From Conexibacter sp. SYSU D00693 (GTDB taxonomy: Bacteria > Actinomycetota > Thermoleophilia > Solirubrobacterales > Solirubrobacteraceae), in the NCBI RefSeq assembly GCF_017084525.1, contig NZ_CP070950.1:3720001-3784000 (forward strand): a stretch of DNA of 64,000 bases, read 5' to 3'. This document shows, in pieces, positions 30,288 to 35,056 of this stretch. Numbering within the stretch: position 1 is the stretch's first letter; each line of letters starts with the position of its first letter. The notes beneath the pieces were generated by a model. It was not told the DNA's origin, ran no database searches, and saw nothing but the letters and a program-made list of their open reading frames with translations. Position numbers and translations under genes: made by a program.

Positions 30288-31043
30288 ATGAGCCCCACGG
30301 AGGTCCGCCTCGAGGTCGCCGACGGCGTCGCGACCCTCACCCTCGACGCGCCCCAGCGGCGCAACGCGCTGACGCCCGAGATGGCGCGCGAGCTCGTCGC
30401 CGCCTGCGATCGCATCGACGCCGATCCGGCCGTCGGCGCCGTCGTCGTCCGCGGCGAGGGCGGGTACTTCTGCGCGGGCGGCGACCGCGCGACGCTCGCG
30501 GCCGCCGGCGAGGATCCCGCCGACCCCCAGGCCTTCGCGGGGCTCAGCGACGTCTACTCGGCGTTCGTGCGCGTGGGCGAGCTCGAGCCGCCGACGATCG
30601 CCGCGGTCCAGGGCGGCGCGGTCGGCGCGGGCATGAACCTCCTGCTGGCCACCGACGTGCGCGTCGTCGCCCGCGACGCCAGGCTCGCCTCCGGCTTCCT
30701 GCCGATCCACCTGCACCACGGCGGCGGTCACGGGGCGCTGATGGGCCGCCTCGGTGGGCGCGAGACGGTCAACGCGATGGTCCTCTTCGGCGAGCGCATC
30801 GACGGCGCGAAGGCGGTCGAGCTCGGCCTGGCATGGGCCGCCGTCGACCCGGATGCCGTCGACGAGGAGGCGCGCCGCCTGGCCGCGGTGCCCGCCGCCG
30901 ACCCCGAGCTGGCCCGGCGCACCGCGCGCTCCGTGCGCCTCGTGGCCGGCCCGCCGGCGCTGCCGTGGTCGGCGGCGCTCGAGCTCGAGCGCCCGGCGCA
31001 GATGTGGTCCATGCGCCGCAAGGCGCTGAATTCACCGTCCTGA
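30288..31043 (+). CDS. Enoyl-CoA hydratase/isomerase family protein, 3' end altered by insertion
   Basis: 251 aa crotonase-fold protein: VADGVATLTLDAPQRRNALTPEM, GGYFCAGGDRATLA (oxyanion hole) and AAVQGGAVGAGMNLLLATDVRV. Its end is MWSMRRKALNSPS. The codons for MWSMRRKA lie in a 26-bp sequence repeated exactly at 33702-33727, where the frame continues to AAG and stops (33733-33735), directly ahead of the serine hydrolase gene. The inserted DNA has therefore replaced the last codons (AAG) with LNSPS while keeping the enzyme intact. The active-site Glu pair is not obvious (the second position reads LHHGGGHG), so it may be a non-hydratase crotonase. ATG 30288 follows a -10-like TATCAG. Confidence 0.87.
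   Translation: MSPTEVRLEVADGVATLTLDAPQRRNALTPEMARELVAACDRIDADPAVGAVVVRGEGGYFCAGGDRATLAAAGEDPADPQAFAGLSDVYSAFVRVGELEPPTIAAVQGGAVGAGMNLLLATDVRVVARDARLASGFLPIHLHHGGGHGALMGRLGGRETVNAMVLFGERIDGAKAVELGLAWAAVDPDAVDEEARRLAAVPAADPELARRTARSVRLVAGPPALPWSAALELERPAQMWSMRRKALNSPS
31000..31025 (+). repeat. Left 26-bp direct repeat (attL-like)
   Basis: A 26-bp sequence running from AGATGTGGTCC to CGCAAGGCG, identical to 33702-33727. It lies inside the enoyl-CoA hydratase coding region and encodes MWSMRRKA in that frame. The bases just outside differ between the copies (C versus G before, CTG versus GCG after), so the identity is exactly delimited. Confidence 0.85.
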
Positions 31044-31174
31044 AGCCAAATCTGGCAGTTGCGCGCCAGCTCGAGCGCCAGGCGCGCAAGGCGAAGAGCT
31101 GCCGACCCTCGTGCAAACCTGGCGACTAGCCGGCCGAGTGTGGTGTCATACCGCGCCGGTCTACGGGCCGATAA

Positions 31175-31582
31175 ATGCTCAGGATGTCCGTGACCTGTCC
31201 CCCGTACCAACCGCATCCGCCGCATCGCGACCGGTCAGCCGGCAAGTCGCAGTGGACGATCCCCGAGGCCGCGGAGACAGTCGTCTTCGAGAGAGCGTGG
31301 GACAACGGTTGGGTCGCCGGCGCCGTGGGCTGGGGCATCTACGCCGAGGACGGCGAGATCGCTTTGGACCTGGGGATATCGGATGACGGGGAACGCAGCC
31401 TGTGGTGGGCCAAGTTCGTGGGGAAGACGGACCCGTGGCACGGCTACCCGGCCGACCTTGTCCGCCGGCAGGAGCATGATGCCCCCGCCGTCTCCGTTGC
31501 CCGCGCCTGGCACGAGGCTGGGCACATTGACAAGGTGGCGCTCAGCCGGATCATCAGGAAGCAGCCGTGCCGCCCGAGCTGA
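31175..31582 (+). CDS. Hypothetical protein of the integrated element, 135 aa
   Basis: ATG 31175 or ATG 31184 (in frame, preceded by CAGG). It is rich in Trp: AGKSQWTIPEAAETVVF, ERAWDNGWVAGAVGWGIYAED, ERSLWWAKFVGKTDPWHGYPADLVRR. The pattern of strands with a conserved-looking DPWHGYP and a C-terminal helix (VARAWHEAGHIDKVALSRII) suggests a compact soluble domain. The product has no signal or membrane segment. Lower GC and T/A-ending codons set it apart from the chromosome. It overlaps the next gene by 16 bp, so the two are coupled. I do not recognise the family; a role in host defence or element maintenance is possible but unsupported. Confidence 0.65.
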   Translation: MLRMSVTCPPYQPHPPHRDRSAGKSQWTIPEAAETVVFERAWDNGWVAGAVGWGIYAEDGEIALDLGISDDGERSLWWAKFVGKTDPWHGYPADLVRRQEHDAPAVSVARAWHEAGHIDKVALSRIIRKQPCRPS

Positions 31583-32922
31583 CACCCGAAGCCGCTGCCG
31601 GCATCCGAGAGCCGGTCACCCTGGACATCCCGGGGGACTGGTGGGACGTGTTCCTCTACGCCGGGCGCCTTTATCTCATCACCCTCGACGGAGACGTGGT
31701 TGAGGTTGACTGGCCCCGGCTCGTTGAGTCGCTTGTAGGGGCCCGGGAAGATCGCCTCGCGCTTGAGCTGAGCTTCATCGACGCGCGGTTCCTGTACGGG
31801 CGCGATTGGGAGCGCCTCGTGCGTGACCCCGAGATCCGCGCGCTCATCACCGACAAGATCAATCGCGTCGCGGCTGCCGAGCTAATTGTCGACTCCGAGA
31901 AGTTGCACCGGAGCACAATCAACTCTCACCTGCAGGCTCTGCCAGAGGCGATTAGCGACCTGGACTTCCATCGCAATCGCATCTACACGGCCAGTGAGGA
32001 AGGCCTGGTCCGCACCGAGCGCTTTGAGCTCAGCCGGAATGGCGGTCAGCGCCAGTGGGATGGCGAGGCGCTTCGTCTCCGGGCTAACGCAGGCATGCTC
32101 GCTGTCGCCGCTGGAGTGGACGGTCTCCGGCAGTCCTGGCTGCGCTCAGATGGTCCTCTTGAGGAGCCTCGAGAGGTCTTGCGCGGTGACTTCACAGGGT
32201 GCAGTTGGCTGAGCACCAGCATCTACGCGTCCTCCCACTCCAACGCGGGCGCCCTAGCAGTGTTCTCGCAGAGTCGGCGGGACGCTGCGCGGACCGGACG
32301 TCGAGCAGTGCGCCGTCTCGAGGCTGCACTGGACAGCGGAACGCTGTTCGACGCTAAGCAGCGCGCGAAGCTCGACGAGATGGTGCGCCGTGAGGTCGCC
32401 GGCGCGGAGGGCTTGCGCGAGGATCCGCCCGCGGCTGACGCAGCGCCCGGTGACGGGATCGACATCCCGGAGTACCAGTCGCGTTACGCCGACCCGCCCG
32501 AGATCAGCCGCCGCGATAAGGGCTTCTCGTGGGCCGGCCACGGCCTGATCTGTCGGGCGGACGTCGATGCCGTGCACATCGTGCGCTACAGCGGCAAGGG
32601 CGACCTCCTGAGCAGGCGGCTCGACGACCTAGGTCAGCTCCGTCTCAACGGGACCGAGGGCGTCACCGACGGAGATGTCGCGCCGTTCGGCGTTGTAGTC
32701 GAGACCGACGACGACCTGCGAGTGATTACTGACGACGCCGTTTACGACGTTGGGATCCGCCCAGTGCGATGGAGGACGTACCACCGGGCGACGAACTACC
32801 CGAATCACTTGCACGTCGTCGCCTCAGATCGAGTCCGCATCATCTCGTTCCTCAACGAAGACATGGTCAATTTCGCTCGTCGCCGAGGCGGCTTCATGGG
32901 TCGCACCGGCCGGGCGCGCTGA
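31567..32922 (+). CDS. Hypothetical protein of the integrated element, 451 aa
   Basis: GTG 31567 starts MPPELTPEAAAGIREPVTLD. The N-terminal part has beta-rich segments (WWDVFLYAGRLYLITLDGDVVEVDW), and similar strand pairs recur (DLDFHRNRIYTASEEGLVRTE, GLICRADVDAVHIVRYSGKG, VVVETDDDLRVITDDAVYDVG). This hints at a propeller-like or repeated beta-meander fold interrupted by a charged helical stretch (SRRDAARTGRRAVRRLEAALDSG). It has no signal peptide, transmembrane segment or catalytic motif I recognise. Codon use is that of the insert, less GC-biased than the flanks. It is coupled to the 135-aa gene. Function unknown. Confidence 0.68.
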   Translation: MPPELTPEAAAGIREPVTLDIPGDWWDVFLYAGRLYLITLDGDVVEVDWPRLVESLVGAREDRLALELSFIDARFLYGRDWERLVRDPEIRALITDKINRVAAAELIVDSEKLHRSTINSHLQALPEAISDLDFHRNRIYTASEEGLVRTERFELSRNGGQRQWDGEALRLRANAGMLAVAAGVDGLRQSWLRSDGPLEEPREVLRGDFTGCSWLSTSIYASSHSNAGALAVFSQSRRDAARTGRRAVRRLEAALDSGTLFDAKQRAKLDEMVRREVAGAEGLREDPPAADAAPGDGIDIPEYQSRYADPPEISRRDKGFSWAGHGLICRADVDAVHIVRYSGKGDLLSRRLDDLGQLRLNGTEGVTDGDVAPFGVVVETDDDLRVITDDAVYDVGIRPVRWRTYHRATNYPNHLHVVASDRVRIISFLNEDMVNFARRRGGFMGRTGRAR

Positions 32923-33065
32923 CCTCTAAGGCCAACCGCTGGAGTTGCGCTCAATCCCCGTCTCGACCGGTGCGGGCACCTCATGCAGGCAACGAAGCCG
33001 AGGCGGCCCAGCTCGTTGACGCGTACCTCGACGCCGCAGGCTGATCGGCGGATAGTCCGTCAGTG

Positions 33066-33593
33066 ATGACGAACTCGACGCCTCACCATGACTACTCGGC
33101 GATAGCGGCGCGACTCTCGGGTGACGAGGCCGCTGTCGCGTACTCGGCACTCGACGACGATGGGCGCAACTGGTTCGTCGTCGAGCGCGCTGGTCGACGC
33201 TCGGCAGCGATGCTGCCCAGGGGTGAGATCGACACTCTGGATGCGAGCAGCCTCGAAGGGCTCATCCGTGCCGGTCTTCGCAGAATCGAGACGGCGGAAG
33301 GAACCGAGCTTGTTCCGGCAGACCTGCGCACGTCCCCCGTCCTGCAGCTCCGAGACGCCTGGCGAGCTCGATCCGACGATCCGCAAGCTCAGGTCGAGAT
33401 CCTCGATGCGCCAGCGGCTGCGTGGGAGTACATCGGCGAGCCGGCGATCGACCTTCGCTTCGTTTCTCCGCAGCGAGCTCAGAGTCATGCCGCTCGCTTG
33501 TCATGGCGCGCCGAAGTGCTGGTGGCGCCCGATGCGGGTGAGTTCGACGAGATCGCGGCGGCCGCTCTGAGGCAGTTCGAGCAGGCGACGTAG
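33066..33593 (+). CDS. Hypothetical protein of the integrated element, 175 aa
   Basis: From ATG 33066 (a GTG lies directly before it) to TAG 33593. It is acidic and soluble: SALDDDGRNWFVVERAGRRSAAMLPRGE and ASSLEGLIRAGLRRIETAEG, ending in a helix GEFDEIAAAALRQFEQAT. No membrane segment, Cys motif or recognised domain. It is separated from the 451-aa gene by about 140 bp that contain a non-starting frame ending in EAEAAQLVDAYLDAAG, perhaps debris of another gene. Base composition is that of the insert. About 110 bp of non-coding DNA follow before the right repeat. Confidence 0.6.
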   Translation: MTNSTPHHDYSAIAARLSGDEAAVAYSALDDDGRNWFVVERAGRRSAAMLPRGEIDTLDASSLEGLIRAGLRRIETAEGTELVPADLRTSPVLQLRDAWRARSDDPQAQVEILDAPAAAWEYIGEPAIDLRFVSPQRAQSHAARLSWRAEVLVAPDAGEFDEIAAAALRQFEQAT

Positions 33594-33701
33594 CGCGCCG
33601 GCGCGCCAGTCGTGCGCCAGCCGAGGCCTGGGTACAGGGGACTCAGCCGGACTCCACCGGACGGTGTAGGCAAGAATCATCGCCGATGAGCGGGGATCCC
33701 G

Positions 33702-33727
33702 AGATGTGGTCCATGCGCCGCAAGGCG
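33702..33727 (+). repeat. Right 26-bp direct repeat (attR-like)
   Basis: Exact copy of 31000-31025. From here the enoyl-CoA hydratase frame runs MWSMRRKAAG and stops at 33733-33735, which I take as the ancestral 3' end. The serine hydrolase GTG (33752) follows 16 bp later, so this junction restores the original operon boundary. Confidence 0.85.
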
Positions 33728-33751
33728 GCGGGCTAGCGGCGACGGGCGACC

Positions 33752-35056
33752 GTGTCGGTCCTGCCGTCCCCGCGCATCCCCGCGCCGCCGCGCATCCCCG
33801 GCCTGCCGGACCCGCTGCGGCGCTGCTGGGTCCCGCGCGACCTCGACAGCGTCACGACGATCGGGGAGGAGGACCCGATGGCGGGCGGGGTGCACCCCGA
33901 CCACGCCGAGCGGCTGTGGCGGGCGGTGCGGCGGCTGTACCGCACCGGCGTGCACCCGGCGATCGCGCTGTGCGTGCGCCGCAACGGCGTCGTGGTGCTC
34001 GACCGGGCGATCGGGCATGCACGCGGCAACGGCCCCCAGGACGGCCGCGACGTGGCCAAGGTCCCCGCGACGCCCGACACGCCCTTCGTCATCTTCTCCG
34101 CGGCCAAGGCGGTCACCGCGGTGCTCGCGCACGTGCTCGACGAGCGCGGCGCGTTCCACGTGGGCGACCGGGTGGCCGAGCACGTGCCGGAGTTCGCGCG
34201 CAACGGCAAGGACGCGATCACGATCGAGCACGTCCTCAGCCACCGCGCGGGCGTGCCGAACCTGCCCAAGGAGGTCCTCGACCTCGACAACCTCGCCGAC
34301 GAGGAGCTGCTGCTGCGCGTCATCGCCGACGCCAGGCCGCGCACCCGCCCCGGCAAGCTCCTGGCCTACCACGCGGTCAGCGGCGGCTTCATCCTCGCCG
34401 AGGTCGTCCGGCGGACCACCGGCAAGGACATCCGGACCGTCCTGGAGGAGGAGCTCCTCGGTCCGCTCGGCTTCCGCTGGGGCTCCTACGGCGTCGCGCC
34501 CGAGGACGTCGACCAGGTCGCGCTGAGCTACCCGACCGGCGCGCCGCCGCTGCCGCCCGTCTCGACGGTCCTGACCCGGGCGCTCGGCCCCCATCCCGAC
34601 GAGGTCACGCGGCTGTCCAACGACCCGCGCTTCCTCACCGGCGTCATCCCCGCGGCGAACGTCGTGACGACGGCGAACGAGCTCTCGCGGTTCTTCGAGC
34701 TGTGCCTGCGCGGCGGGACGCTCGACGGCGTCACGGTCTTCGAGCCGCGCACGATCCGCCGGGCGACGGTGGAGCGCGCGTACCGGGAGCTCGACCTGAC
34801 GCTCGGCGCGCCCATGCGCCATGGCGCCGGCCTGATGCTCGGCGCGCAGGCGATCTCGCTCTTCGGTCCGGACACCGAGCACGCCTTCGGCCACCTCGGC
34901 TTCACGAACGTCCTCGGCTGGGCCGATCCCGAGCGCGACCTCAGCGTCGGCCTGCTCACCTCCGGCAAGCCGATCGTCCACCACGGCCTGCCCGACCTCT
35001 GGGCGATCACGCGCGAGGTCGGGCGGCTGGGGCCGAAGGCCGGTCTGCCCGGCTAG
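33752..35056 (+). CDS. Serine hydrolase, beta-lactamase family (class C / esterase type)
   Basis: 434 aa from GTG 33752. Penicillin-binding fold: SxxK in VIFSAAKAVTAVLAHV (nucleophile Ser), a Tyr motif in LLAYHAVSGGFILAEVV, and a C-terminal HLGFTNVLGWADPERD. No signal peptide is seen, so it is likely a cytoplasmic esterase or lipase-like enzyme rather than a secreted beta-lactamase. Homologues named LipE/EstB are similar in outline. It originally followed the enoyl-CoA hydratase by 16 bp; the 2.7-kb insert now separates them and may have removed its promoter. A remote beta-lactamase activity cannot be excluded. Confidence 0.88.
   Translation: MSVLPSPRIPAPPRIPGLPDPLRRCWVPRDLDSVTTIGEEDPMAGGVHPDHAERLWRAVRRLYRTGVHPAIALCVRRNGVVVLDRAIGHARGNGPQDGRDVAKVPATPDTPFVIFSAAKAVTAVLAHVLDERGAFHVGDRVAEHVPEFARNGKDAITIEHVLSHRAGVPNLPKEVLDLDNLADEELLLRVIADARPRTRPGKLLAYHAVSGGFILAEVVRRTTGKDIRTVLEEELLGPLGFRWGSYGVAPEDVDQVALSYPTGAPPLPPVSTVLTRALGPHPDEVTRLSNDPRFLTGVIPAANVVTTANELSRFFELCLRGGTLDGVTVFEPRTIRRATVERAYRELDLTLGAPMRHGAGLMLGAQAISLFGPDTEHAFGHLGFTNVLGWADPERDLSVGLLTSGKPIVHHGLPDLWAITREVGRLGPKAGLPG

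Follow-up and report, generated by a model that had tools for sequence, protein, structure and literature searches.

Within the 64,000-bp stretch of Conexibacter sp. SYSU D00693 that we analysed (contig NZ_CP070950.1, positions 3,720,001 to 3,784,000; hereafter the window), a small insert lies between the 3′ end of an enoyl-CoA hydratase/isomerase family gene and a serine hydrolase gene. This insert, probably what is left of a site-specific integrative element, and the pair of genes that it carries are our subject here. An initial annotation, made from the DNA letters and predicted reading frames, had described an insert flanked by attachment (att) sites that splits an operon of the two neighbouring genes. 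The features at the locus, in window coordinates, are as follows.

30288–31043, plus strand: enoyl-CoA hydratase/isomerase family gene (ECH_1, PF00378, E-value 1e-34) whose C-terminus, compared with relatives, ends in apparently element-derived codons, LNSPS and a stop
31000–31025, plus strand: putative attL core, the left copy of a 26-bp direct repeat, encoding (Q)MWSMRRKA; exact match, two sites only in the genome
31026–31043, plus strand: putative element-supplied replacement 3′ end, LNSPS and a stop, as read from the sequence
31026–33701, no strand: inserted DNA of 2676 bp, probably a decayed integrative element, marked by a drop in GC content and in GC content at third codon positions (GC3) and by a search of family genomes
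31175–31582, plus strand: small module gene, 135 amino acids (slightly fewer if the start is at 31184), with a WHGYP motif; homologs lie directly upstream of the large gene
31567–32922, plus strand: large module gene, 451 amino acids, GTG start, 16-bp overlap with the small gene; homologs, and a ratio of nonsynonymous to synonymous substitution rates (dN/dS) of about 0.3 against the copy of a congener
32962–33044, plus strand: C-terminal remnant of a tyrosine integrase, reading LDRCGHLM, a frameshift, then GNEAEAAQLVDAYLDAAG and a stop, recognised by matches in two relatives (genomes G030 and G130)
33063–33593, plus strand: orphan open reading frame (ORF), 176 amino acids, no family, with one weak match in 146 family genomes
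33702–33727, plus strand: putative attR core, the right copy of the 26-bp repeat; exact match, two sites only in the genome
33728–33736, plus strand: displaced native hydratase end, AG and a stop, from comparison with relatives and from the joined flanks
33752–35056, plus strand: serine hydrolase of beta-lactamase fold on the right flank (PF00144, E-value 5.7e-59), unlinked to the hydratase in relatives

The borders of the insert are drawn by the repeat AGATGTGGTCCATGCGCCGCAAGGCG, which stands letter for letter at both of these positions, as the initial annotation had reported, with a copy-to-copy distance of 2702 bp. It is the sole exact 26-bp repeat of the window, and a search of the whole genome (a 4.43-Mb single contig) that allowed up to three mismatches returned the same two copies and no third; terminal inverted repeats of the insert were not found. 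The left copy lies, again as first described, in frame close to the 3′ end of the hydratase gene, which now terminates in MWSMRRKALNSPS and a stop. After the right copy comes GCGGGCTAG; when the outer flanks are joined by script, they yield ERPAQMWSMRRKAAG and a stop, i.e. an ending of MWSMRRKAAG; this empty site is a reconstruction from the flanks, not an observed genome. Because the hydratase ends in one way today and the joined flanks end in another, the element appears to have supplied a new ending and displaced the native one, which now lies at 33702–33736. The earlier claim that the right copy restores the native ending is borne out by the joined flanks; the spacing given with it needs correction, the displaced stop (33734–33736) standing 15 bp, not 16 bp, ahead of the serine hydrolase GTG at 33752.

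What does the repeat encode? Its translation, QMWSMRRKA, corresponds to the last conserved residues of the enoyl-CoA hydratase/isomerase family: QMWSMRRK or a near variant, followed by a few residues and a stop, closes the protein in one congener and in 23 relatives with named genome records, a set that is almost entirely actinobacterial. The target is a single uninterrupted copy in related genomes, where the second repeat copy is absent, and among 232 genomes of the order the gene end is single-copy wherever it is present, the genome of the window excepted. One congener, G002, lists the gene end twice, and there it recurs near both ends of a single contig. Two drafts, G005 (C633:25–47) and G177 (C396:5–27), have a contig whose start is less than 25 bp from the hydratase core; the assemblies may have broken at a repeated core, in which case inserts would have gone unseen at these sites. 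Searches of related loci for the types of integrase and serine recombinase tried gave nothing next to the hydratase, and the 26-bp core was not found in viral contigs. The operon of hydratase and serine hydrolase is unproven, as the two genes are not linked in those relatives in which we located both. Serine hydrolase orthologs in G107, G166, G087 and G229 (64–66% identity) are located away from the hydratase, and in G002, the nearest hydratase-bearing congener, the hydratase has a different downstream neighbour and serine hydrolase homologs are distant only.

The DNA between the two copies is clearly foreign. Its GC content is 0.64–0.69 versus 0.73–0.79 outside, and GC3 is 0.87, 0.78 and 0.73 in the three insert ORFs versus 0.97 in the hydratase and 0.98 in the serine hydrolase, so that the lower GC reported between the repeats is confirmed by both measures. 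A DNA search of the 146 family genomes did not find the insert elsewhere, except for a partial, one-gene relative in G005, short matches to integrase ends, and weak background. These data bear on the possibility of a local duplication of host DNA, in which the right copy would be the leftover of a duplicated hydratase gene. The right copy is indeed the coding end of that same gene, but identity breaks off sharply beyond the 26 bp to either side, the DNA between is foreign in composition and without a host homolog, and longer degenerate hydratase homology upstream of 33702 was not seen; we find a local duplication barely credible.

The initial annotation had seen no recombinase in the insert. 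There is one, decayed rather than never present: in the search of the insert DNA against the family genomes, the stub at 32962–33044 matches G030 (82% over 72 nt) and G130 (85% over 47 nt), and both hit one and the same part of tyrosine integrases, the C-terminus. The G030 integrase is intact; it has 385 amino acids, ends in FDRYGHLMPGNEAEAAQLLDDFLDGWSEAG and a stop, and belongs to Pfam Phage_integrase. In the window only about 27 C-terminal codons remain, and these have lost 1 nt after LDRCGHLM and carry Cys (TGC) in place of the catalytic Tyr. To gauge the background, we compared 952 control tiles, cut from elsewhere in the window, with both of these loci; tiles that landed on the integrase genes scored at most 37.4 bits versus 68.9 and 50.9 bits for the stub, and the few tiles that scored higher match a cytochrome P450-like gene of G130, off the integrase genes. 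The Conexibacter genome has several other tyrosine recombinases, and those that match the G030 protein do so at 22–33% identity only; intact close kin of the stub's integrase was not seen in this genome, and an intact integrase gene was not found inside the element. Because a C-terminal stub lies inside the insert, the element would once have had its own integrase, since decayed, and we infer that the stub derives from the very enzyme that carried out this insertion. The relative of the stub in G130 (C7, 6626–6901) seems truncated or degenerate too, and this integrase family may decay often.

An integrase fragment could also have arrived by chance. Foreign DNA may have been captured at a staggered double-strand break and sealed in by end joining, fill-in giving the 26-bp duplication and the stub being merely captured; the lack of terminal inverted repeats and of an intact recombinase agrees with such an event, in which an integrase fragment could be caught like any other sequence. 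A random break, however, must hit the last conserved codons exactly and leave a working replacement end, and site-specific integration would lead one to expect just such an integrase remnant in the insert. We consider break capture unlikely.

In our judgement, the insert is very probably what remains of an element that integrated site-specifically and whose integrase has decayed. The site-specific reading is supported because the repeat is a gene end, relatives are uninterrupted, the interior is foreign, and an integrase remnant lies inside. The central idea of the initial annotation, a site-specific element that targets a protein gene at its 3′ end and provides a replacement end, appears well supported on these grounds, as the core is identical to the hydratase end and LNSPS with a stop is supplied; its accompanying statements on the operon, the missing recombinase and, as described below, three unknown cargo genes do not stand as made. 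The sequence of events may have been as follows. An element-borne tyrosine integrase would have recombined the 26-bp core identical to the hydratase 3′ coding end, presumably leaving attL in the hydratase gene, where codons of the element would have restored the ending and kept the enzyme almost whole, and attR together with the native ending that had been displaced. Subsequent decay, including the change of the catalytic Tyr to Cys and the frameshift, would have cut the integrase down to its last ∼27 codons, and the paired cargo would have been kept. With its integrase decayed, the element should therefore be unable to move alone, and excision would be expected only if a compatible integrase were provided in trans.

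What did the element carry? The third of the cargo genes is an orphan, but the first two form a conserved module that is also found on plasmids of other phyla. The module is an overlapping pair of ∼135 and ∼400 amino acids in conserved order, and homologous pairs overlap by a few bases. Homologs of the pair are present in G173 (same family), in Acinetobacter lwoffii and Sphingomonas aerolata, and also on plasmids of Sinorhizobium americanum, Agrobacterium pusense and Ruminococcus albus, a spread that covers Actinomycetota, alpha- and gammaproteobacteria, and Bacillota. The pairing held at every locus that could be checked (the window, G173, Sinorhizobium, Agrobacterium, Ruminococcus, Acinetobacter and Sphingomonas, the large partner in Sphingomonas being judged by position and length only). 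The pair is rare, with 1 occurrence in 396 genomes of the phylum, 2 in 399 of the class and 3 in 146 of the family. A cut-off copy of the large gene in the congener G005 shares 54% identity, and its dN of 0.42 versus a dS of 1.40 in this comparison points to purifying selection on the large gene. In alignments of the small protein, WHGYP is invariant and HR, W and E residues are conserved; in the large protein, a Y-G-L-DG pattern recurs in several short strand-like units and is suggestive of a beta-propeller-like repeat as a candidate fold. AlphaFold single-sequence models of the module proteins had a mean pLDDT (predicted local distance difference test score) of 37 for the small and 33 for the large protein and were not used. 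Neither family has a match in Pfam, NCBIfam, PADLOC or PHROGs, and the PADLOC models match neither the proteins of the window nor those of the homologous modules; there are no solved structures for either family, and cargo relatives were not found in viral contigs and phage records. Weak P0002 matches in G105 and G066 were not recovered by a profile search of the family. No conjugation or transfer gene families were found among the three insert ORFs. Between the replacement end and the module, 31044–31129 holds a short open stretch (LKPNLAVARQLERQARKAKS...) that could be another gene remnant; matches for it are unreliable in the GC-rich background.

The neighbourhoods of the pair elsewhere appear, in a small sample, to be mobile and defence contexts. 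For example, in the Acinetobacter lwoffii plasmid pALWED1.4 the pair lies between a XerC/D pdif site (51–80) and a XerD/C site (1768–1795), a layout that looks like a typical dif module of 1.7 kb (51–1795); the pair is not among the modules named in Table 3 of a paper on dif modules in this plasmid set (PMC6449649). A second small dif module, at 1840–2456 and with one small ORF, follows that of the pair. The Acinetobacter locus raises the question of whether the insert in Conexibacter was a never-autonomous cassette, without a recombinase, that was moved in trans, e.g. by XerCD or another integrase. The same gene pair in a pdif module would suit this, but the insert contains an integrase stub, and its repeat is not dif-like, agreeing with the dif forms tried at no more than 13 of 28 positions; additionally, no actinobacterial dif-like site was found in the window. 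A cassette of this kind is very unlikely.

In Agrobacterium, the immediate neighbours of the pair are a Druantia DruE of full length (2340 bits), Vsr and an HNH nuclease, and a site-specific integrase is ∼14 kb away. The surrounding region of Agrobacterium pusense pR76 (5713–25949) is a dense defence island with the pair in the middle, and contains a DNA methylase, Druantia DruE, Vsr, the HNH nuclease, a caspase-family protein and a RES-type NAD+ phosphorylase. In Sinorhizobium, the pair has a DrmB-like fragment as its neighbour. A large serine recombinase lies ∼4.4 kb from the large-gene copy of G005, and a kinase resembling PD-T4-6 lies ∼3 kb from the pair in G173, a locus where the end of the adjacent acyl-CoA dehydrogenase was not found to recur as a direct repeat. 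From such company, a selfish or defensive role seems most likely for the pair, with an anti-phage or toxin–antitoxin-type system as the candidate, and we advance a function in defence or of toxin–antitoxin type tentatively. It is conceivable, if somewhat doubtful, that the pair is an undescribed system of one of these types that passes from phylum to phylum as a discrete unit, in differing recombination contexts. Those contexts could perhaps be a tyrosine-integrase island, a XerC/D pdif module and, possibly, a large serine-recombinase element.

Several observations weigh against the picture of a decayed site-specific element with defensive cargo. The stub is ∼660 bp from attR with an ORF between them, and could derive from a second element. 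Neither of two signs that the initial annotation had pointed to was found: an empty copy of the exact hydratase–hydrolase junction was not present in the relatives' genomes examined, and no other element with the same 26-bp core was found. Additionally, defence neighbours are present at only ∼3 of 8 loci of the pair.

Among known systems, the element is of an ordinary kind; its target is unusual, and its cargo is interesting. Prophage e14 in icd is another case of integration at the 3′ end of a protein gene. Such integration is well known from SGI1 in trmE (PMC8409611), and many islands reconstitute the gene that they enter (PMC12884075). The insert resembles SGI1 and e14 in having its core in the coding 3′ end and in supplying a replacement end, and differs in that those elements carry an active integrase, whereas the insert has a stub. 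A protein gene rather than a tRNA gene is the target here, as initially proposed, and this is not in itself new. In the literature searched, no clear earlier report of integration into an enoyl-CoA hydratase-type gene was found, and the element adds this type of gene to the list of targets.

The insert is also a clear case of a decayed integrase beside intact cargo. A cis-mobilizable element (CIME) is a decayed integrative and conjugative element (ICE) or integrative and mobilizable element (IME) that keeps attL and attR and has lost its genes for integration and transfer (PMC5704250). Like a CIME, the insert keeps both att sites, one in a gene 3′ end, carries cargo, and is without an integration gene or any transfer genes; unlike one, it is very small, has an enoyl-CoA hydratase-type target, and has no neighbouring element in sight that would mobilise it. 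By structure it would fit the description CIME-like; the integrase stub would suit an ICE, an IME or a prophage as ancestor alike, and a satellite is also possible. With the Acinetobacter pdif modules (PMC6449649) the insert shares the form of a small, recombinase-less cassette between recombination sites, and the module of pALWED1.4 holds homologs of its gene pair; it differs in its gene-derived 26-bp core, in place of dif sites, and in probably having once had its own integrase. We see the cargo pair as the more useful part of this work: it spans Actinomycetota, Pseudomonadota and Bacillota and is in no family library that we checked. It differs from the cargo of known defence islands in matching no PADLOC model and resembles it in the company that its homologs keep in Agrobacterium, directly beside full-length DruE, Vsr and HNH; as a candidate for a new system of defence or stabilisation, it is small, concrete and testable.

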